Of a stretch of 38,402 nucleotides of DNA, positions 11,217 to 21,520 are shown piece by piece (position 1 is the first letter of the stretch; the number at the start of each line of letters is the position of its first letter). The notes under the pieces are model-generated. The model did not search any database. It worked only from the letters and a program-made list of their open reading frames with translations, and was not told the DNA's origin. The position numbers were made by a program, and so were the translations under genes. The stretch lies in contig JAIXTO010000222.1 of assembly GCA_027483885.1 (NCBI GenBank), forward strand, positions 1 to 38,402, read 5' to 3'. The DNA is from Rhizobiaceae bacterium (GTDB lineage: Bacteria; Pseudomonadota; Alphaproteobacteria; Rhizobiales; Rhizobiaceae).

Positions 11217-12266
11217 ATGCGCAGCGAAAAACCGAAATTGGCCATGATCGCCGAAACGCTGAGCGTTTCCGTCGCCACCGTGTCCAACGCTCTCTCCGGC
11301 AAGGGGCGGGTATCACCGGAACTAGCAGACCGCATCCGTGAGACGGCGCGGGATCTCTCCTATGTGCCGAGCATGGCGGGCAGGGCGCTGCGCACCGGCA
11401 GAAGCGGTGTTCTCGGGCTTGTCCTGCCCGATATCGCCAATCCGCTGTTTCCGCAGATTGCCCAGGCCATCGAACAGGCTGCTTCCACCGCCGGCTACGG
11501 GGTGCTGATCGGCGATTCGCGCGGCCATACCGGCGTGCAGACCGAAGCAATCGACCGGCTGATCGACCGCGGGGTCGATGGCATGGTGGTGATCCCGCGC
11601 CGTGGCACGCGCATTTCCGATATCGGCTGCCCCGTCGCCGTCATCGATACGCCCTCGACCCCCGGCAATACCGTCTCATCCGATCATTGGGATGGCGGGC
11701 GCCAGATGGGCGCGCATCTGCGCGGGCTTGGTCATCGCAAGGTGCTGATCCTTGCCGGGAGCCCCCAGTCCACGGTGCAGAACGATCGGGTCGGCGGGTT
11801 AAAGAGCGGCCTTGGACCGGATGCCAAGGTTGAAGTGGTCTGGCTCGAAAAGCTGGCGCCGCCTGATGTGCCGGGCCGTCCGCTCGGTCTTGCCGCCTGC
11901 GTTCGCCAGGGGTTCACCGCTTTTGCGGCGCTGTCGGATCTGACGGCCGTTCGCGCGCTGACCGAATTGCAGGGTGCCGGCATTGCCGTGCCGGACCAGG
12001 CAAGCGTTGCCGGGTTTGACGATCTCATCTGGTCCTCGGTGGTGACGCCATCGCTGACCACGCTGCGCATGGACATGGCCGAGATCGCGCGGCTTGCCGT
12101 CGCAGCGCTCACAGCCGTCATAGAAGGACTGCCGCGCGGACGCGTGGCGGCCTCCGGCACGGTCACGGCCGAACGGCCCAGCGTGCCGATGATGCTGGTG
12201 GTTCGCCAATCGACCGGCCCCTGCCGCAGCCTGTTGCCCGACATGGCGGAAGGGGCGGGGCAATGA
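11217..12266 (+). CDS. LacI-family regulator of purine salvage (inferred)
   Basis: A 349-aa LacI/GalR-type repressor. The N-terminal helix-turn-helix reads KLAMIAETLSVSVATVSNAL (residues 7-26), followed by the hinge region SGKGRVSPELADRIRETA and SYVPSMAGRALRTGRSG. The rest is a periplasmic-binding-protein-like effector domain with GLVLPDIANPLFPQIAQAIE and the late motif VAGFDDLIWSSVVTPSLTTL. It lies directly upstream of a nucleoside hydrolase and an adenine deaminase on the same strand, so a purine nucleoside or base is a reasonable effector; that is inference from context. A palindrome just upstream suggests autoregulation. The Shine-Dalgarno is weak. Confidence 0.9.
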   Translation: MRSEKPKLAMIAETLSVSVATVSNALSGKGRVSPELADRIRETARDLSYVPSMAGRALRTGRSGVLGLVLPDIANPLFPQIAQAIEQAASTAGYGVLIGDSRGHTGVQTEAIDRLIDRGVDGMVVIPRRGTRISDIGCPVAVIDTPSTPGNTVSSDHWDGGRQMGAHLRGLGHRKVLILAGSPQSTVQNDRVGGLKSGLGPDAKVEVVWLEKLAPPDVPGRPLGLAACVRQGFTAFAALSDLTAVRALTELQGAGIAVPDQASVAGFDDLIWSSVVTPSLTTLRMDMAEIARLAVAALTAVIEGLPRGRVAASGTVTAERPSVPMMLVVRQSTGPCRSLLPDMAEGAGQ

Positions 12267-12603
12267 CGATGGTCGTTTCGTTCAGGGCGGGCCCGCCCAC
12301 CCATCGCAACATTCGTAATCTTGGCCTTGCAAAGCTGTGCGCCAGCCCCATTTCCGCCTTGCTTCAGGCGTTTGGTGAACGGGATGGACAGACGCTGATA
12401 ACAGGCGTTCGCCCGGAAGCCCCAGACATGAAATTAGAGATGACCGGCCATGTTCCGATAGCGGCGGAGCAGGTCCGTCAGCCGCGCGTGATGTGCCTGG
12501 TCTCAGGTCCTTTCCAGGCCATTGCGCGCGGCGAATTTTCAAAGCCAATCCTTTCCAGCCACATCTGCGCCTCTTCCGGCCGCGCCCTTTTCAGGAGGGC
12601 GTG
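12267..12603 (+). other. 337-bp spacer inside the purine salvage unit
   Basis: No recognisable gene. An open frame (12263-12604, 113 codons) fills the gap exactly, overlapping the regulator stop as ATGA and the hydrolase start as TGATG, but its translation resembles no family I know and lacks a good ribosome-binding site. A perfect 14-bp GC palindrome (GGGCGGGCCCGCCC, 12285-12298) lies near the start. No second copy of the upstream TTAAACGATTAA operator is seen. AGGAGG near the end serves the nucleoside hydrolase. Confidence 0.4.
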
Positions 12604-13539
12604 ATGGGCGTCTGGGTCGATACCGACATGGGTTTTGACGATATCGCCGCCATTCTGGTGGCAAACCATGGCCGTGAACCGGTCGATGGAGTGTCGCTGG
12701 TTTTCGGCAATGCCGGACTGCAACAGGTCGAGCGCAATGCCTGCGGCGCAAGCATGGCCTTTGGCTGGTCCTTTCCACTCTTTCGGGGGCGTTCTGCTCC
12801 CGTGCTCGGCCGTCTTGAGACGGCAGAAAGCATCCTCGGCGATCACGGAATGCCAAGTGCGGGCAAGCGCCTGCCCGAGGTTTCTGTGGTCCTGCACGCC
12901 GAGGATGCTTTTTCAGCGCTGTGCGGCTGGCTTCAGCGCAAGCATGTGGATGGGCTGCCGCGCCGTATCCTGGCGCTCGGACCGCTCACCAATCTGGCAG
13001 CGCTTGCCCTTGCGCGCCCCGATCTGGCTGCCGAAATCGATGATATCGTCTGGATGGGCGGCGGCGTCACCACGGGCAACCACACGGCGTCGGCCGAATT
13101 CAATGCCTTTGCCGATCCCGAAGCGCTCGCCATCGTGCTCTCGCATGGCCTGCCGCTGCGCATGGTCGATCTCGATCTCTGCCGCAAGGTTCTGGCGTCG
13201 CCTGCCGATGTCGTGCCGGTGCGCGCGGCGGGCGGGCGCAACGCCACGCTGATCGCCGATCTTCTCGCCGGCTTTATCGACATCGCCATCCAGCGCGGCC
13301 GTCCCGCCATGTCGCTCTACGATGCTGTTGCCGCCGTTGCCTTCATCCGCGACGATCTCGTCACCTGGCGCCGCGCAAGGCTCGACATCGAGCTTTCCGG
13401 TACCCATACACGCGGCCGCACGGTGGTTGAAATCCGCGACGGCCGTGCTCCGTTCAACGCCGATTATGCCGTCGACATCGATGTGGACGCCGCGCGAAAA
13501 CTCATACTCGACATTCTTAAAAGTGAAGCATCCCGATGA
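12604..13539 (+). CDS. Nucleoside hydrolase (inosine-uridine preferring family)
   Basis: A 311-aa IUNH-type N-ribohydrolase that splits nucleosides into base and ribose. The N-terminal motif VDTDMGFDD (Asp6, Asp8, Asp12, Asp13) is the calcium/ribose site, usually DTDPGxDD. The substitution of Met for Pro and Phe at the next variable site is mild. ILALGPLTNLAAL, WMGGGVTTGNHTASAEFN (the ribose-binding Asn/Glu/Asn block) and FADPEALAIVLSHGLPL all fit. SLYDAVAAV carries the last metal Asp, with Tyr where many members have His. The start at 12604 has AGGAGG 6 nt upstream. Its stop overlaps the adenine deaminase start (ATGA), so the two are co-translated. Confidence 0.93.
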   Translation: MGVWVDTDMGFDDIAAILVANHGREPVDGVSLVFGNAGLQQVERNACGASMAFGWSFPLFRGRSAPVLGRLETAESILGDHGMPSAGKRLPEVSVVLHAEDAFSALCGWLQRKHVDGLPRRILALGPLTNLAALALARPDLAAEIDDIVWMGGGVTTGNHTASAEFNAFADPEALAIVLSHGLPLRMVDLDLCRKVLASPADVVPVRAAGGRNATLIADLLAGFIDIAIQRGRPAMSLYDAVAAVAFIRDDLVTWRRARLDIELSGTHTRGRTVVEIRDGRAPFNADYAVDIDVDAARKLILDILKSEASR

Positions 13540-15317
13540 CCCGTCCCTTCGAACTCTTCGATCTCAACCTGCCGGAACTGCGCCGCCGCGCCGTGCAGGC
13601 CGCGCGTGGAGAAGGGCCTTTTGACGTCTTGGTCAAGGGCGGAACGCTGGTGGATGTGGTGACTGGCGAACTTCGCGCCGCAGATATCGGCATTGTCGGC
13701 CCGATGATTGCAAGCGTCCATGCGCCGGGCAGCCGCACCGATGCCGCAACCCTCATCAATGCCGCCGGCGCCTTCCTGTCGCCGGGTCTCATCGATACGC
13801 ACATGCACATCGAAAGCTCGATGGTGACGCCCGCCGGTTATGCGCAGGCCGTGGTGCCGCGCGGCGTAACAACCGTGGTCTGGGATCCGCATGAATTCGG
13901 CAATGTGCTAGGCCTTGCCGGGGTTAACTGGGCAGCCGACGCGGTGATCGACCTGCCGCTGCGGGTCATCCTGCTCGCTCCGTCCTCTGTTCCCTCGGCG
14001 CCGGGTCTTGAGCTTGCAGGGGCCTATTTCGGGCCGGATGTGCTGCAGACCCTGCTGGCGCGGCCGGATATCGCCGGCATTGCCGAAATGATGAACATGC
14101 GCGGCATCATCGAAGGCGACGCGCGGATGGAGGGCATCATTCAGGCGGGGCTGGAGACCGGCAAGCTGATCTGCGGCCATGCCCGCAGCCTTTCCGGCCC
14201 CGATCTGCAGGCCTTCATCACCGCCGGCGTCACCTCGGATCATGAGCTGGTGTCCGGCGCCGATCTCCTCGAAAAGCTGCGCGCCGGCCTCACCATCGAG
14301 CTTCGCGGCAGCCATGATCACCTGCTGCCGGAATTCGTCGAGGCGCTGAACGCGCTCGGCCACCTGCCGCAAACCGTGACGCTCTGCACCGACGATGTGT
14401 TTCCCGACGATCTCCACTCAGCCGGCGGTATGGATGATGTGGTGCGCCGTCTGGTCCGCTACGGCATGAAGCCACAATGGGCGCTGCAGGCGGCTACCAT
14501 CAACGGCGCGCGCCGGCTTGGCCGGCCGGATCTCGGGTTGATCGCGCCCGGACGTCGCGCCGATCTGGTGCTGTTCGAGGATCTGGACAGTTTCGAGGCC
14601 CGCCGCGTGCTGGTCTCCGGACGCGAGGTTGCCGCCGGTGGCGCGCTGTTGTCGCCGCCCTCTGCCACCGAAACGGTGACGCTTGGCGATACGATGAAGT
14701 TGTCAGCCCTCACGGCCGATGATTTCCGGGTTCCGGCCACGGGCTCCTCCGCCCGCATCGCCACCATCGATCGGCCCCGCTTCACGCAATGGGGCGAAGC
14801 GACCGCCGAGATTGCCGATGGCCATGTGGTGCCGCCGGAGGATACGACGCTGATTGCCGTCATCCATCGTCATGGGCTTTCACCTGCCACACCGCGCATC
14901 GGTTTCCTCACCGGCTGGGGCACCTGGCGCGGCGCTTTTGCCACCACCGTCTCGCATGACAGCCACAATCTGACGGTGTTCGGCAAGGACCCGGCAGACA
15001 TGGCAGCGGCTGCCAATGCGGTGATTGCCGCAGGCGGCGGGCTTGCCGTTGCCGCTGACGGCGTGGTGAAGGCGGTGCTGCCGCTGCCGCTTGCGGGCCT
15101 TGTGGCCGATGGCAGCATTGCCGAGCTGGCATTGGGCTTTGCCGCCCTCAAGGCGGAGATGGATCGCATCGTTGGCTGGCAGCCGCCTTATCTGGTGTTC
15201 AAGGCCTGTTTTGGCGCAACGCTTGCCTGCAATGCCGGCCCCCACCAGACCGATCTCGGCATCGCCGATGTCACAACCGGAACACTTCTGGAAAGCCCCA
15301 TCCTCGAAACGGCCTGA
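13536..15317 (+). CDS. ade: Adenine deaminase
   Basis: A 593-aa amidohydrolase-superfamily enzyme converting adenine to hypoxanthine and ammonia, close in length to E. coli Ade (588 aa). The binuclear metal motif is IDTHMHIESSMVTP (about 85-98); VWDPHEFGNVLG (about 115-126) and MNMRGIIEGD are further family hallmarks. GHARSLSGPDLQAF, TSDHELVSG, RGSHDHLLPEFVEAL and CTDDVFPDDL follow in order, and the C-terminal domain contains FLTGWGTWRGAFATTVSHDS. Coupling to the nucleoside hydrolase makes a short path from (deoxy)adenosine to hypoxanthine, with the regulator upstream. Confidence 0.96.
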   Translation: MTRPFELFDLNLPELRRRAVQAARGEGPFDVLVKGGTLVDVVTGELRAADIGIVGPMIASVHAPGSRTDAATLINAAGAFLSPGLIDTHMHIESSMVTPAGYAQAVVPRGVTTVVWDPHEFGNVLGLAGVNWAADAVIDLPLRVILLAPSSVPSAPGLELAGAYFGPDVLQTLLARPDIAGIAEMMNMRGIIEGDARMEGIIQAGLETGKLICGHARSLSGPDLQAFITAGVTSDHELVSGADLLEKLRAGLTIELRGSHDHLLPEFVEALNALGHLPQTVTLCTDDVFPDDLHSAGGMDDVVRRLVRYGMKPQWALQAATINGARRLGRPDLGLIAPGRRADLVLFEDLDSFEARRVLVSGREVAAGGALLSPPSATETVTLGDTMKLSALTADDFRVPATGSSARIATIDRPRFTQWGEATAEIADGHVVPPEDTTLIAVIHRHGLSPATPRIGFLTGWGTWRGAFATTVSHDSHNLTVFGKDPADMAAAANAVIAAGGGLAVAADGVVKAVLPLPLAGLVADGSIAELALGFAALKAEMDRIVGWQPPYLVFKACFGATLACNAGPHQTDLGIADVTTGTLLESPILETA

Positions 15318-15356: not shown

Positions 15357-15370
15357 TTGATTTTGCTCAA
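15357..15370 (+). promoter_or_regulatory. FixK/FNR box (anaerobox)
   Basis: TTGAT-TTTG-CTCAA matches the FNR/FixK consensus TTGATNNNNATCAA at 9 of 10 positions, with a perfect TTGA-N6-TCAA core. It is the best such site I found in the intergenic regions. It lies about 105 bp upstream of the small four-cysteine gene and within 1.4 kb of a fixK gene. At the usual class II spacing (centre at -41.5), transcription would start near 15405. Confidence 0.6.
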
Positions 15371-15474
15371 TGCGCGCGGGCCTTCTGCGCGCCAGGTTTT
15401 CCCATTGCAGTCAGCCTGCCGGTGGCAGCGCATCTGCAGGCGCAGGAAGGGGTTGCCCCTCGAAGGGAAAGTTC

Positions 15475-15840
15475 ATGGTTTCCGGTTACCGGGTTGCCGA
15501 TATCACGACATCACAAGTGGACCGCGCCTTTGCGCTGGTGCATGCCGCCGATGCGCACGCCGAGCTTTCCACCTGGCGCCGCACCTGCGAGGACGTGATT
15601 GCCGCACAGCGGGAGGGCCGGGCTTTCGATCGCCTGATGGTGTGCGAAAATGCCAATGGATACCTGAAGGGCCTTTGCCTTGTGCATCGCCGTGACACGC
15701 CGGACGAGCACCTGCTCGACGTGCCTCTTTATGTGGTGATGGCGGTCGTGGATGAGGAGGGCGTTCGCCAGACCCTCTCGGAACACCTGCAGAAACTGGC
15801 CATTGAGACCGGCTGCCAGTTGATGCCGATCCCGGAATGA
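15475..15840 (+). CDS. Small four-cysteine protein, possibly a FixT-like antikinase
   Basis: A 121-aa soluble protein that I do not recognise with certainty. The ATG at 15475 is preceded by AAGGGA nine nt upstream; a frame starting at 15370 would begin inside the FixK box and is unlikely. The layout (a helix around AFALVHAADAH, a strand GYLKGLCLVHR, and a final helix with TGCQL) faintly recalls a shortened GNAT fold. It has four cysteines (C38, C57, C68, C114). A near-perfect FixK box upstream, and convergent placement against the fxkR-like gene of an hFixL/FxkR/FixK set, suggest a FixK target. FixT, a small FixK-induced inhibitor of FixL in Sinorhizobium and Caulobacter, would fit size, context and cysteine content. 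This is inference; a plain hypothetical protein is the safe label. Confidence 0.7.
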   Translation: MVSGYRVADITTSQVDRAFALVHAADAHAELSTWRRTCEDVIAAQREGRAFDRLMVCENANGYLKGLCLVHRRDTPDEHLLDVPLYVVMAVVDEEGVRQTLSEHLQKLAIETGCQLMPIPE

Positions 15841-15855
15841 GCGCTTGCGCGGCCT

Positions 15856-16587
15856 TCAGGACGTGCTGGTCTCTGCCGTGAAAATGTAACCGACGCCGCG
15901 CACCGACCGGATCAGCACCGGATGTGTCGGGTTGGTCTCGATCTTCTTGCGCAGGCGCGCGATCTGCGCATCGATGGCACGGTCGAAGGCTTCCATCTGG
16001 CGCCCCCGCGTCTGGTCCATCAGCATGTCGCGGGTCAACACCCGGCCGGCATTGCGGATCATCACCGTCAGCATGTCGAATTCGCCGGTGGTGAGATCCA
16101 CTTCCTCGTCGTTGGGGTTGAGCAGCCGGCGCCGGCTGATTTCCAGGCGCCAGCCGTCAAAGGCAAACACCTGTCCTATCTCGACCTGCGGCGCTTCCAC
16201 CGGCCGGCGACGGCGCAGGATGCTGCGCACCCGCGCCAGCACTTCACGCAGGTGAAAGGGTTTTGGAATATAGTCGTCGGCACCCACTTCCAAGCCGATG
16301 ATGCGGTCCACCACATCGTCGCGCCCGGTCAGCATGACGATCGGCACGTCTGACGTTGCGCGCACTTCGCGGGCCAGCGCCAGGCCATCTTCGCTGTTGG
16401 GGAGCACCAGATCGAGCAGGATGAGGTCGATTGTGTAATCGGCAAGCGCCTTGCGCATCGAAGCGCCGTCAGAAGCGCCGGTGACGAGAAAGCCTTCATC
16501 CTCGAAATAACGGGTCACCATCTGGCGGATACGCGGATCGTCATCGACGATGAGGATCCGCTCGGCCCGCCGCTCGAGTTTCGTCAT
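15856..16587 (-). CDS. fxkR: OmpR/PhoB-type response regulator, FxkR-like
   Basis: A 243-aa two-component regulator. The receiver domain (about 10-125) has the acidic pair VDDDPR, phosphoacceptor Asp59 in LILLDLVLP, the Thr of VMLTGRDD, and the Lys of DYIPKPFH. The C-terminal winged helix (about 140-238) has VDLTTGEFDMLTVMIRNAGRVLTRDMLM and ends with LIRSVRGVGYIF, typical of OmpR/PhoB proteins. It diverges from fixK, with hfixL next. In Rhizobium etli an OmpR-type regulator, FxkR, receives the signal from hybrid FixL and activates fixK at a conserved K-box; no FixJ (LuxR-type) is seen here. The gene symbol rests on this context. The Shine-Dalgarno is weak. Confidence 0.88.
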   Translation of the reverse strand: MTKLERRAERILIVDDDPRIRQMVTRYFEDEGFLVTGASDGASMRKALADYTIDLILLDLVLPNSEDGLALAREVRATSDVPIVMLTGRDDVVDRIIGLEVGADDYIPKPFHLREVLARVRSILRRRRPVEAPQVEIGQVFAFDGWRLEISRRRLLNPNDEEVDLTTGEFDMLTVMIRNAGRVLTRDMLMDQTRGRQMEAFDRAIDAQIARLRKKIETNPTHPVLIRSVRGVGYIFTAETSTS

Positions 16588-16610
16588 GCTTTACCCGACT
16601 GCTTTATGCG

Positions 16611-16648
16611 CTGTTACAGACTGTTACACATTTCAACCCACCGTAACA
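16611..16648 (+). promoter_or_regulatory. fixK upstream repeats, candidate FxkR site (K-box)
   Basis: CTGTTACA occurs twice, at 16611-16618 and 16621-16628, exactly 10 bp apart, as expected for a dimer of an OmpR-type regulator on one face of the helix. A third, inverted copy of TGTTAC lies at 16643-16648. A possible -10 box CATAGT at 16680-16685 would place the repeats at the -60 to -80 region of the fixK promoter, suitable for activation. They also lie just upstream of the divergent regulator gene. Confidence 0.6.
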
Positions 16649-16712
16649 TGCCCGGCATCCTTCTGTCACCGCTCCCCGCCATAGTTTGGCCATCAGGACA
16701 GAGGGACGCACA

Positions 16713-17465
16713 ATGCTTTCGACGGGCTCAAACGCACATTCCAATTTCGCCGCCGTAGCGATGATGAAACCGCAGCTGGAGACGCTTGACGAACTGTTTG
16801 CCGCGGTGCCGCGTGAGACGCTGGACGTCGGCGCCGGCCTGTTCTGGGAAGGGGACCGTGCCCAGCACATCTTCGAGGTGTCTGAAGGTGTCCTGAGGAT
16901 TTTCAAGATCATAGGCGATGGGCGTCGTGTCATCACCGGCTTTCTTTATGCCGGAGACATGGTGGGGCTGACACTGCGCGATGTCTATCTCTACAGCGCC
17001 GAAGCGGTCACGCCGGTCAAGGTTCGTCGTCTCACCAAGAAGGCTTTTCAGGATGCCGTCGAGCATTCGCCAGAACTTCGCCCGCGGCTTTTTGCCTTGA
17101 TGTGCGACGAAATGGCAGCCGCCCAGGACCAGATGGTGCTTCTGTCACGCAAGAGCGCCGAGGAACGCGTCTGCAGCTTCCTGATGTTGACGGCCCGTCG
17201 CATGCAGGGCAACCGGCAGCTCGGCCGCACGGTACAGTTGCCGATGAGCCGGCAGGACATGGCCGACTACCTCGGCCTTACCATCGAAACTGTCTCACGC
17301 ACGATTACCAAGTTGATTGCGCGTGGTGTGATTGCCCCCAACGGCCGCCACGCGTTCGATATCGCCAAGCCCGGAAAACTGCTTGCGCTGTGCGGCGATG
17401 GCGATAGTTATGAGGAAATCGGCGAGCGTGGCGCAAAGACCAGGCAGGCCGTCTGGCCGCATTGA
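16713..17465 (+). CDS. fixK: FixK-type CRP/FNR-family regulator
   Basis: A 250-aa transcription factor with a cNMP-like beta-barrel (about 38-125, LFWEGDRAQHIFEVSEGVLR), a dimer helix and a C-terminal HTH (about 178-205). The recognition helix LTIETVSRTITKL contains the E-x-x-S-R pattern (Glu192, Ser195, Arg196) that reads TTGAT half-sites. The N-terminal cysteine cluster of FNR/FnrN is absent, so it should not sense O2 itself but be controlled through its expression, as in FixK proteins. Start at 16713 has GAGGGA upstream; a TTG at 16686 is unlikely. It lies 40 bp before hfixL and probably shares its transcript. Expected targets in the family include high-affinity oxidase genes, not present here. 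Confidence 0.9.
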   Translation: MLSTGSNAHSNFAAVAMMKPQLETLDELFAAVPRETLDVGAGLFWEGDRAQHIFEVSEGVLRIFKIIGDGRRVITGFLYAGDMVGLTLRDVYLYSAEAVTPVKVRRLTKKAFQDAVEHSPELRPRLFALMCDEMAAAQDQMVLLSRKSAEERVCSFLMLTARRMQGNRQLGRTVQLPMSRQDMADYLGLTIETVSRTITKLIARGVIAPNGRHAFDIAKPGKLLALCGDGDSYEEIGERGAKTRQAVWPH

Positions 17466-17505
17466 ACGTGGCCCCGTGCAATCGCTTTGACTGTTAGGGT
17501 TTTCT

Positions 17506-19416
17506 ATGGGTGAGAAGGTCAATGCCGGGCAGACATTCGATGTATCGAGCCTGTTGTCGCTTCTTGGTCCGATCAATGTCATCGCGCATGATGCCGAAGG
17601 GCTGATCTCTCATTGGAGTGCCGGCAGTTCCGGCCTGTTCGGCTGGAGCGCCGAGGAGGTGGAGGGGCTCGACATACTGGCGCTGTTGCAGCCTTCACCC
17701 CCGATTGTGCTGGCCGATATTGTCGCCGTCATCCGCGCCGAGGGCGCCTTCAAGGGCAATCTGGAATATCGCCATAAGGACGGCCATACGATTTCGGTTC
17801 TCAGCCGCTGGGTGATGGCGGATGTGGCCGATGGCAAAGGCCCGCTGGTCGTCCAGATCAACGAGGATTTTCGCGCCGCCGCCACTATCCAGGAAAACCT
17901 CGCGGTGCGCGAGGCGCATTTCCGGTCGATCCTGCAGACCGTGCCGGAAGCCATGGTCGTGATTGACGAGGCCGGCATCATCACCTCGTTTTCCTCCACG
18001 GCGGAAGACCTGTTCGGTTATGACGCAGAGGAAGTGGAGGGACGCAATGTGTCGACCCTCATGCCATCGCCCGACAGGGATGGCCATGATGGTTACATTC
18101 GCCACTACATGACCACCGGCCAGCGCCGCATCATCGGCATCGGGCGCGTGGTCAAAGGGCTGCGCAAGGATGGTTCGACATTTCCGATGGAGCTTGCCGT
18201 TGGCGAGGCGGTATCCAATGGCAAACGCATCTTTACCGGCTTCATCCGCGATCTCACCAGCCGCCACCGCATCGAGGAAGAACTGCGCCAGGCGCAGAAG
18301 ATGGAAGCCATCGGCCAGCTGACCGGCGGGCTTGCGCATGACTTCAACAATCTCCTGACGATCATCAGCGGCAATCTGGAAATGCTGGAGATGAAGCTGC
18401 AGGATCCGAAGGCCCTGACGCTTCTCAAAGAAGCGCAAGGGGCAACCGATGACGGCGCCAAGCTGACGGGCCAGTTGCTGGCCTTCGGTCGGCGCCAGCC
18501 GCTCAACCCCCGCATGACCGATCTGGGGCAGATGGTCTCCAGCTTTTCAGAGCTGATCCGCCGCACCATCGGCGACCGCATCGAGTTGCGCACGACCATT
18601 CGCGGGGGTGGCAACGAGGCGCTTGTCGATGGCCCGCAGTTGCAGAACGCGCTCTTGAACCTGACGCTCAACGCACGCGACGCCATGCCGAAGGGCGGCC
18701 AGCTGACCATTGAGGTCAGCCGTGTCCATCTCGACATGGATTATGCGCAGATGTACCCGCAGGTGCGCGCCGGCTATTACATTCTGGTTGCCGTCACCGA
18801 TACGGGAACCGGCATGACGGATGAGGTCAAGCAGCGTGCTTTCGAGCCGTTCTTTACCACCAAATCGACCGGAGCCGGAACCGGGCTCGGCCTCAGCATG
18901 GTCTATGGTTTCGTGCGCCAGTCCGGCGGCCATATCCAGATTTACAGCGAGCAGGGGCAGGGCACCAGCGTCAGGCTTTTCCTGCCCGGCGTCATCGATG
19001 CATCGGTTCTGCAGGCGGGCGAGGGCCATCTGCCCGCCATGCCGGATATACCCGGCGGCACGGAAACCATTCTTGTGGTGGAGGATGATCCGCGCGTGCG
19101 CAGGGTTGCCGTCGCGCGACTGGAAAACACAGGCTACACGGTGCATCAGGCCGGAAACGGCATCGAGGCGCTGGCCGTTCTTGACGCACATCCGGAAGTG
19201 GCGCTGCTGTTTACCGATATCGCCATGCCCGGCATGTCGGGCGATCAGCTGGCAAAAGTGGTGCGCGAGCGGCGCCCGGATATCCGCATCCTCTTCACCT
19301 CGGGTTATGCGGAACCGGACATTGCCGGCAAGCAGCTGGCGGCCGATGGCAGCTGGCTGAAAAAGCCCTATACGGCGCGCGACCTTGCGGTGCAGTTGCG
19401 CCTTCTGCTGGATTGA
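17506..19416 (+). CDS. Hybrid FixL oxygen-sensor histidine kinase
   Basis: A 636-aa hybrid kinase without obvious membrane segments. A first PAS domain (about 16-125) lacks haem residues. The second PAS (about 138-255) is FixL-like: [18 protein letters not shown] and [12 protein letters not shown] give His194 as the proximal haem ligand (H200 of Bradyrhizobium FixL) and Arg214 at the place of the O2-contacting R220. The counterpart of R206 is His200. DHp domain: GGLAHDFNN, phospho-His278. HATPase: [21 protein letters not shown] and [15 protein letters not shown]-terminal receiver (520-634) carries [14 protein letters not shown], Asp571 in [11 protein letters not shown] and Lys619/620. FixL in the R. 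etli hFixL-FxkR pathway has this hybrid form. The gene follows fixK by 40 bp. Confidence 0.9.
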
Positions 19417-19498: not shown

Positions 19499-21520
19499 TC
19501 AGCTTGCCCGCGCAACGGGCCGGGCGGTTTGCGGCGAAAGGCGTGACAGCTGGGCCGCAATGTCCGACGGTGCCATGGAGCGGCCATAGAGATAACCCTG
19601 GCCGCAATCGCATCCCATCATCTTCAGCGTGATTTCCTGTTCCACCGTCTCGATGCCTTCGGCAATCGTGGTCACGCCGATGTCCTTGCTCAGCAAGATC
19701 AAGGCGCGCGTGATGGCGGCATCCCGCTGCTTGGTGATGAGATCGCGCACAAACCCCTTGTCGATCTTCAGCGTGGTGATCGGGTAGCGTTGCAGCGTGC
19801 CGAGAGAGGCATAGCCGGTGCCAAAATCGTCAAACGCAATGCCGACGCCCAGTTCACGCAACTCGCTGATCACCTTGAACGACTGGTCGCCATCCTGAAG
19901 CGTGGCCGTCTCGGTAATCTCAAGCTCGAGGATGGCGGGAGCGACGTCATAGCGCTTGAGCAGTTCCGCCACTTCGGTGGCAAGGTTCGCGCAGCGGATC
20001 TGGGACGGGAAGAGATTGACGCTCATCTTGACCAGAGGCAGGCCGCTTGCGGCCCATTCGGCCAGCTGCCGGAGTGCTTCGTTCAGCACCCACCAGCCGA
20101 CATCGACGCTCAAGGCGCTCTGCTCCAGCATCGGCAGGAATTCGGCGGGCGGCAGCAGGCCGCGCTCGGGATGTTGCCAGCGGATCAGGGCTTCCATGCC
20201 GCAAAGGCTGCCATCGCGTAGGTTGACCTGGGGCTGGTATTGCAGAACGAATTCGCGCTTGGTCAGCGCCCGCAACAGGTCGCGCTGCACAGCGCGCCGG
20301 TTCTGCGCGACGGCCTGCAGGGAGGCATCGAAAGGCACCGCTTTGTGTATGTCGGAGCGCTTGGCGTGCAGAAGGGCGAAATCGGCCTGGGCCACAAGCT
20401 CTTCCGGGTCGGCTTGATCTGTCGCAATGGCATAACCGACGCTGCCAATAACGCGCAGCCGGTGACCATTGATCATGAACGGGGTTTCCAGCGCATCCAG
20501 CAACTGCCTGGCCAGTGAATGGACCGTGTCGCCGGTTGCGTGCTGAGGCAGAACGATGGCAAAGCGGCTTGCGCTAATTCGGGCCAGCGCCGTATCAAAG
20601 CCAAGCGGCAGGCTGGTGCGGATGACAATGCTCTGTACGAGCGTATCGTGGATCTGTGGCCCGAGATGGTCGTTGATGTCGCGCAGCCCCTCGATGTCGA
20701 GCATGAGCACCGCGGCGACATTCCCGTTTTCGCACTGCTCGCGCAGCAGTTCTTCAAAGCCATGGCTGTTACAGAGCCCGGTCAAGGTGTCGTGATTGGC
20801 CAGACGCAGCAGACGCGCCTGGCGGCTGTGTCGTTCGGATATATCGGCAACGGCCGCACCCAGATGCCGGCCCTCGTTGGTGTCCCACGCGGTCAGCACG
20901 ACTTCGAGGGGGAATTCGTGCCCATCGCGATGGCAGGCCCGGATTTCGAAGGCCTTGCCGCTCAACTCGTCGGGGCTGAGGTTCATCATGCCCGAGAGAA
21001 TGTGCTGGCATTCGTCCCGCAGGCGTTCCGGGATCAGCAGCATGGACGACAGGCCCATCAGTTCATCGCGACTGTAACCAAACAGCCGCAGGGCTGCGTC
21101 GTTGATGAAATCGACCACTCCGGTGGCGTTGATTGAGAAAAGCGGATGGTGTGTGGCATTGGCAAAGCCTGCGGCATTCGAGATCGCGGCCTCGGCCAGA
21201 TCAATGTCGGCGTGCGTTTCCCGCTGCCCGTTCATCACCTTCAGCATCGTTTCCTCTGTCTCGGAACGGGGTGGGTGTTTGTCGATCGGGCCGAAGGATG
21301 ACGGCAGTGATGCCTGCAGGCGGACCTCCGGAGCAGACGATGTCGCAGCCGTGGAAGCCTTCGGCCGCTCTTGTCCCATCGATGTTCCGGCCACAACCGC
21401 CGACGCAGCACATGGGCGAGCGCCCTGCACGGCGATCGTCGCACTGGGTCCCTCGCACGGCGCGAGACCATGTCGCGGCGAGAGGGCGGAGGTGTCCACA
21501 TCAAGGTTAAGTTGCATCAT
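19499..21520 (-). CDS. PAS-GGDEF(degenerate)-EAL protein, probable c-di-GMP phosphodiesterase
   Basis: 673 aa: a low-complexity N-terminus (1-90), a PAS domain (about 115-232), a GGDEF-like domain (about 235-395) and an EAL domain (about 405-655). The GGDEF core is replaced by RISASRF (314-320), so cyclase activity is not expected. The EAL domain keeps its catalytic set: Glu443 in MEALIRW, ELEITE, Asp564/Asp565 in DDFGTGYAS, Lys585 in LKIDKGFV and Glu621 in EGIE. It should hydrolyse c-di-GMP under control of the PAS sensor. The start is uncertain: the first ATG has GGAG close by, but an ATG at 21247 has a better AGAGGA five nt upstream and lies just before the PAS domain. An AT-rich stretch at 21545-21632 is the likely promoter. 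No transmembrane helices are seen. Confidence 0.9.
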   Translation of the reverse strand: MMQLNLDVDTSALSPRHGLAPCEGPSATIAVQGARPCAASAVVAGTSMGQERPKASTAATSSAPEVRLQASLPSSFGPIDKHPPRSETEETMLKVMNGQRETHADIDLAEAAISNAAGFANATHHPLFSINATGVVDFINDAALRLFGYSRDELMGLSSMLLIPERLRDECQHILSGMMNLSPDELSGKAFEIRACHRDGHEFPLEVVLTAWDTNEGRHLGAAVADISERHSRQARLLRLANHDTLTGLCNSHGFEELLREQCENGNVAAVLMLDIEGLRDINDHLGPQIHDTLVQSIVIRTSLPLGFDTALARISASRFAIVLPQHATGDTVHSLARQLLDALETPFMINGHRLRVIGSVGYAIATDQADPEELVAQADFALLHAKRSDIHKAVPFDASLQAVAQNRRAVQRDLLRALTKREFVLQYQPQVNLRDGSLCGMEALIRWQHPERGLLPPAEFLPMLEQSALSVDVGWWVLNEALRQLAEWAASGLPLVKMSVNLFPSQIRCANLATEVAELLKRYDVAPAILELEITETATLQDGDQSFKVISELRELGVGIAFDDFGTGYASLGTLQRYPITTLKIDKGFVRDLITKQRDAAITRALILLSKDIGVTTIAEGIETVEQEITLKMMGCDCGQGYLYGRSMAPSDIAAQLSRLSPQTARPVARAS

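Follow-up and report, generated by a model that had tools for sequence, protein, structure and literature searches.

We analysed a 38,402-nucleotide (nt) stretch of DNA from a Rhizobiaceae bacterium (contig JAIXTO010000222.1; at its full length, the window), in which four adjoining genes occupy about 4 kb: a hybrid haem-PAS histidine kinase gene (hfixL), a Crp/Fnr regulator gene (fixK), an OmpR/PhoB-class response regulator gene (fxkR) and a small gene lying behind a FixK/FnrN-type box, or anaerobox (Table 1). The first three very probably form the full hFixL-FxkR-FixK low-oxygen cascade, in a genome without a recognisable nifH. Neither this cascade, already known from root-associated bacteria, nor its compact layout is novel, and it is the small gene that is new to us. 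The small gene and fxkR are convergent, with 15 nt between their ends, and since only 40 nt separate fixK from hfixL, we read the latter two as a presumed operon.

Table 1 Features of the cassette, in positions of the window
Feature	Position	Strand	Basis
Anaerobox (FixK/FnrN-type box) TTGATTTTGCTCAA	15357..15370	+	Precedes small gene; exact TTGA-N6-TCAA
Small gene, 121 residues from ATG, GNAT-fold protein with degenerate acetyl-coenzyme A (acetyl-CoA) loop (predicted)	15475..15840	+	AlphaFold2 model, PDB matches, family alignment
fxkR, OmpR/PhoB-class response regulator	15856..16587	-	Pfam (receiver, Trans_reg_C), tree with FxkR9, 64% identity to FxkR9
K-box GTTACAGACTGTTACA, predicted FxkR operator	16613..16628	+	Exact consensus match
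fixK, Crp/Fnr regulator	16713..17465	+	Pfam cNMP_binding and HTH_Crp_2; 57% identity to FixK9b of Rhizobium leguminosarum (Rlv)
hfixL, hybrid haem-PAS histidine kinase, C-terminal receiver	17506..19416	+	Pfam, His194/Arg214, FixL/hFixL alignment

The hFixL-FxkR-FixK cascade

An earlier reading of this DNA, hereafter the original prediction, had described the kinase as a hybrid FixL with an intact haem PAS, the regulator as an OmpR-type protein divergent from fixK, FixK as free of iron-sulphur (Fe-S) cysteines and the small gene as preceded by a FixK box, and all four descriptions hold. In the kinase, His194, which is the haem ligand, and Arg214 are both present; its haem PAS shares 63% identity with the corresponding domain of Sinorhizobium meliloti FixL, and Pfam recognises two PAS regions, HisKA, HATPase and a receiver that keeps its Asp. 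This combination of a FixL-type haem PAS with a C-terminal receiver places it, by sequence, in the hFixL class, and it is 57% identical to hFixL9 of R. leguminosarum 3841 as against 37% to S. meliloti FixL. A kinase of the FixL-FixJ cascade, with a HELNQPL-type histidine box such as that of S. meliloti FixL and no receiver, was considered and rejected, the box here being HDFNNLL and the receiver being present; in five other kinase loci that were scanned, no FixL-type haem-PAS motif was found. FixK, 57% identical to FixK9b of strain 3841, has cysteines solely at positions 131, 154 and 227 and no N-terminal Fe-S cluster, unlike the FnrN-like protein of the same genome, which has three N-terminal cysteines and a central one.

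The regulator, with receiver Asp and Lys both in place, is 64% identical to FxkR9 of strain 3841 and 65% to an S. meliloti FxkR. A tree was built from 49 of 104 collected response regulators. Score and gene context had marked 27 of the 49 in advance as cassette or FxkR proteins, and the other 22 are further relatives from the OmpR family. All 27 labelled proteins, the window protein and FxkR9 included, form a single clade (support 98/90), which contradicts a placement in another OmpR subfamily, the outcome that the original prediction had named as its own refutation. Because the regulator shares this supported clade with FxkR9, whose role has been shown by deletion (PMC7888657), we assign the window genes, by their sequence, to the hFixL-FxkR-FixK cascade. 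It would take a remarkable accident for the regulator to be an ordinary OmpR-family protein without FxkR kinship, flanked by boxes that arose by chance: the 25 best listed of its 97 NCBIfam matches are indeed other regulators of the OmpR family, none of which reaches its cut-off, but that account is contradicted by the tree, by the conserved gene order and by an exact K-box, unique in the assembly, in the 125-nt region between fxkR and fixK.

This K-box, overlooked by the original prediction, lies 84 nt upstream of the fixK ATG and 25 nt upstream of the fxkR ATG, and conforms to the FxkR operator consensus GTTACA-N4-GTTACA (PMC4999443, PMC7888657). The 5.5 Mb assembly has no second exact copy, and none appeared in 100 shuffles of the window. 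Across related cassettes, a K-box within one mismatch is found in the fxkR-fixK intergenic region of 16 of the 19 that carry the small gene, eight of these copies being exact and one of the remaining three cassettes showing three mismatches, and of six of the seven examined that do not, two of them exact. The exact anaerobox is likewise present once in the window; by chance, a mean of 0.31 copies per shuffle is expected, and 26 of 100 shuffles of the whole 38 kb contain one.

The suggestion that it was unusual to find all pieces side by side does not survive comparison with known systems. Strain 3841 (R. leguminosarum/johnstonii) already has a chromosomal cluster of the same three genes (cluster 3, fxkRc-fixKc-hfixLc, RL1881-RL1879), in which fixK and hfixL apparently form an operon (PMC7888657), and the synteny check proposed earlier found the same gene order in the plasmid records examined, so we reject the arrangement as new. 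The intergenic region of cluster 3 is described as having neither K-box nor anaerobox (PMC7888657), whereas the window has an exact K-box. On pRL9 of the same strain, fixK is under K-box control (PMC7888657), as predicted for the window, but the genes, including those for the three proteins used in the comparisons above, are split into two clusters (fixK9a-hfixL9 and fixK9b-fxkR9), one of them adjoining fixNOQP; the 22 kb of pRL9 examined showed no homologue of the small gene. In strain 3841, fixNOQP and fnrN are targets of the cascade at 1% O2 (PMC7888657). A further parallel in layout comes from S. meliloti USDA1157 and pSymA of strain 1021, where the same four genes stand in the same order with both anaerobox and K-box, the small protein having 153 residues as against 121 in the window. 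S. meliloti fxkR is whole in USDA1157 and split into two matching pieces in strain 2011, while strain 1021 (L013:8369-8911) has only its C-terminal part in one frame; hFixL signalling may differ between laboratory strains of this species, in which FxkR has been studied in SM11.

The remainder of the genome bears on what such a cascade would control. No nifH was found above the family cut-off (best match E 1e-5). The remark that fixNOQP was out of view is correct for the window and fails for the genome, where ccoO, ccoP and fixG, all above their cut-offs, and ccoN fragments, below cut-off and spread over three contigs, occur elsewhere; hemN is also above its cut-off and an fnrN-like gene below its own. 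Further anaeroboxes lie 57 nt ahead of fixG and between hemN and fnrN. The cascade's job is thus probably microaerobic respiration and haem synthesis, rather than nitrogen fixation. In a single genome-wide search, the closest matches to S. meliloti FixJ were 42% and 40% identical, the latter (L030, C122 of this genome) adjoining a kinase with an HEVNQPL box and no recognisable haem-PAS motif, and a true FixJ looks absent from the genome.

The small gene and its ties to the cascade

No Pfam or NCBIfam family matches the small protein of the window at E 0.001. Plasmids of Sinorhizobium, Ensifer, Agrobacterium and Rhizobium carry relatives with 27-35% identity (31 records), and in all ten of these records that were examined the gene adjoins fxkR. 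A profile of 21 members ranks GNAT structures first, though weakly (SSAT1, E 0.016), and Acetyltransf_1 matches four of the 21 (best E 0.025). AlphaFold2 models, each built from three sequences, reached a predicted local distance difference test score (pLDDT) of 86.8 (good) for the window protein and 76.2 (moderate) for that of locus L042; of the top 50 PDB hits listed for each, 46 for the former (SSAT and GNA1 included, the other four titles being silent) and all 50 for the latter bear acetyltransferase names. By these models, the family has the GNAT fold, which it shares with SSAT1 and other GNAT acetyltransferases.

Active GNAT enzymes carry a Q/R-x-x-G-x-G/A motif in the acetyl-CoA loop. 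In the small-protein family, by contrast, Asp stands at the Arg/Gln position of such enzymes in 21 of 21 members, the middle Gly being kept in 20, which speaks against an active acetyltransferase, and we read the protein, from its sequence, as a non-catalytic GNAT. The antikinase FixT was rejected as well: a BLASTP comparison with the S. meliloti open reading frame between fixK1 and fixJ, which we take to be FixT1, gave E 5.2, and the fold predicted for the small protein is GNAT, not receiver. The window copy is shorter than its 20 aligned relatives (121 residues against 143-178), and the last ~26 residues, a conserved C-terminal part, are gone; this copy may be impaired.

To relate the small gene to the cascade, we compared 199 Rhizobiaceae genomes, scoring a limited list of candidates in each, so that absences may be misses, and using for FxkR a cut-off of 1e-105 that was set after a score gap among the collected regulators had been seen. 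The small gene was found in nine genomes, all within the 13 with FxkR (hypergeometric 6e-13, with relatedness not fully removed), and the 186 genomes without an FxkR hit yielded no copy; counted by genus, it occurs in six genera, all among the eight FxkR genera of 109 (hypergeometric 1.4e-8). All nine small-gene genomes also encode an hFixL-like protein (57-100% identity), while four of the 13 FxkR genomes lack the small gene.

At the level of individual loci, the small gene and fxkR meet tail to tail in 19 of the 21 compared, which is not an unbiased rate, as most of these loci were found through similarity to the small gene or the cassette. An exact anaerobox lies within about 235 nt upstream of it in 15 of the 21, as against 1.4 expected from the box density in the same loci; the box is present in nine of nine loci from Sinorhizobium/Ensifer or grouping with them and in six of the 12 others, the window included. 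The 21 exclude L012 (conspecific with L013), L025, L036 and L142 (the window again), together with L033-L035 and L037-L041, which repeat loci of the count in shorter form. A profile search with FxkR, of which the best 80 of 593 matches were kept, contributed seven loci to the cassette set (L042-L048; L044 without adjacent fixK), and the small gene is present in two of these seven. Two congeners of the window organism offer a different view, their cassettes (L159, L160) being without the small gene, which stands elsewhere in the genome with an anaerobox of its own; acetate kinase is nearby in both congeners, and in one of them an AdhP gene adjoins the small gene. Because the gene is unlinked in the congeners and still co-occurs with the cascade, we argue for a tie that exceeds mere neighbourhood, the two congeners counting as one event.

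In Ensifer sp. PDNC004 (L017:9251-9799), the cassette has kept the small gene, fxkR, fixK and the two boxes, but no more than a C-terminal piece of hfixL could be located.

Proposed circuit and role of the small protein

By analogy with the systems already studied, we propose a circuit in which loss of oxygen from the hFixL haem would fire the kinase, FxkR would be phosphorylated, directly or via the kinase's own receiver, and FxkR bound to the K-box would switch on the fixK-hfixL operon; lying just ahead of fxkR, the same box may also damp fxkR itself. As it lacks Fe-S cysteines, FixK should not sense oxygen on its own, and it would activate genes behind anaeroboxes, that is, the small gene here, and elsewhere fixG, for cbb3 oxidase assembly, and hemN/fnrN.

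Several observations weigh against this interpretation. A FixJ-like regulator does exist in the genome, at the 42% identity given above, and the tree labels were partly chosen by score, so that the clade test was not blind. The exact K-box word occurs in 37 of the 199 Rhizobiaceae genomes and a backwards control pattern is frequent too, for which reason the word alone proves nothing and its position is what counts. The small protein of the window is the short one of its family, and the cassette groups away from those of the two congeners, so that transfer is possible and the wiring need not match that of the strains studied.

What the small protein would do within the circuit can be read in two ways. 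It could be an output, adjusting low-oxygen metabolism or proteins (for instance in acetate, ethanol or polyamine metabolism) from a promoter that needs this particular FixK, which we consider quite possible, if short of probable. The neighbours in several records, among them acetate kinase, phosphoketolase, an acetate-CoA ligase/GNAT fusion and universal stress genes, fit such a role, as does the unlinked gene of the congeners with its own anaerobox, acetate kinase and, in one, AdhP. It is harder to reconcile with the failure to find the gene in any genome where FxkR was not found, misses in the limited candidate lists notwithstanding, given that regulons of other FixK/FnrN proteins are widespread among alphaproteobacteria (PMC4999443).

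Alternatively, the pseudo-GNAT could be a feedback regulator that FixK induces and that adjusts the signal by binding hFixL or FxkR, a role that we regard as conceivable but incline to doubt. Its confinement to FxkR genomes, the tail-to-tail placement and the anaeroboxes speak for it, and the invariant Asp in the acetyl-CoA loop argues for a non-catalytic function. There is also a precedent in FixT of S. meliloti and Caulobacter, to which we liken it, a small protein induced by its own FixL pathway that inhibits FixL (PMC7078487). FixT is, however, a single-domain receiver protein (PMC7078487), to which the predicted GNAT fold of the window protein has no similarity, so that the same job would be done with an unrelated fold. 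Against feedback stand the four FxkR genomes and five of the seven FxkR-derived loci without the gene, its separation from the cassette in the congeners and the truncation of the window copy. The lack of similarity to the reading frame that we take to be FixT1 points the same way. In its strongest form, feedback regulation would add to the pathway a fourth, so far undescribed member, a catalytically inactive protein of GNAT fold that FixK induces via the anaerobox and that brakes hFixL or FxkR, an independent invention of the FixT role; this we put forward tentatively, as rather unlikely.

Even so, a small family not found without FxkR in the 199 genomes and preceded by a cascade-type operator is a concrete candidate, available in S. 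meliloti as well as in the window, where the cascade stands in a genome without recognisable nifH. In the accessible parts of the literature searched, neither a brake on the hFixL-FxkR-FixK cascade nor the small gene is mentioned, and a prediction of the gene may stand in supplementary tables. The S. meliloti tag SMa1141 is named in two papers, where it figures as a putative Fnr/Crp gene and among missing regions, with nothing on the small gene. If a brake is what the protein provides, pseudo-acetyltransferases would be in use in two-component signalling.

History and surroundings of the cassette

A total of 135 plasmid records encode FxkR-like proteins (E 1e-60 or better). The FxkR of the window pairs with that of Rhizobiales AFS080716 (L043; 73% identity, support 100/99) and not with those of its congeners, and in AFS080716 an adenine-deaminase-like gene abuts fxkR, as in the window, with no small gene found there. 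The two congeners carry a different FxkR lineage from the window, which suggests replacement or transfer, and the cassette has probably moved between lineages. One might go further and regard the window cassette as a transferred, partly decayed copy, with its cascade genes intact and its small gene truncated and non-functional. The loss of the conserved C-terminal part and the grouping with the AFS080716 copy would agree with this; we nevertheless think it unlikely, as neither the three cascade proteins nor the two operators show damage and the shortened small protein is still predicted, with the pLDDT given above, to fold.

The surroundings had been described earlier as purine genes next to the cassette and cyoAB in the same window. 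The purine genes are borne out by a group at 11217-15317 that adjoins the cassette and consists of genes for a LacI-type regulator, a nucleoside hydrolase and an adenine-deaminase-like protein, together a purine-salvage group; for the last of these, the Pfam C-terminal domain is above its cut-off and NCBIfam ade below. The subunit II part of the cyo claim is confirmed by a cyoA-like gene at 886-2064. On the other side of the cassette, at 19499-21520, Pfam identifies a gene for a PAS-GGDEF-EAL protein, which lies tail-to-tail with hfixL.

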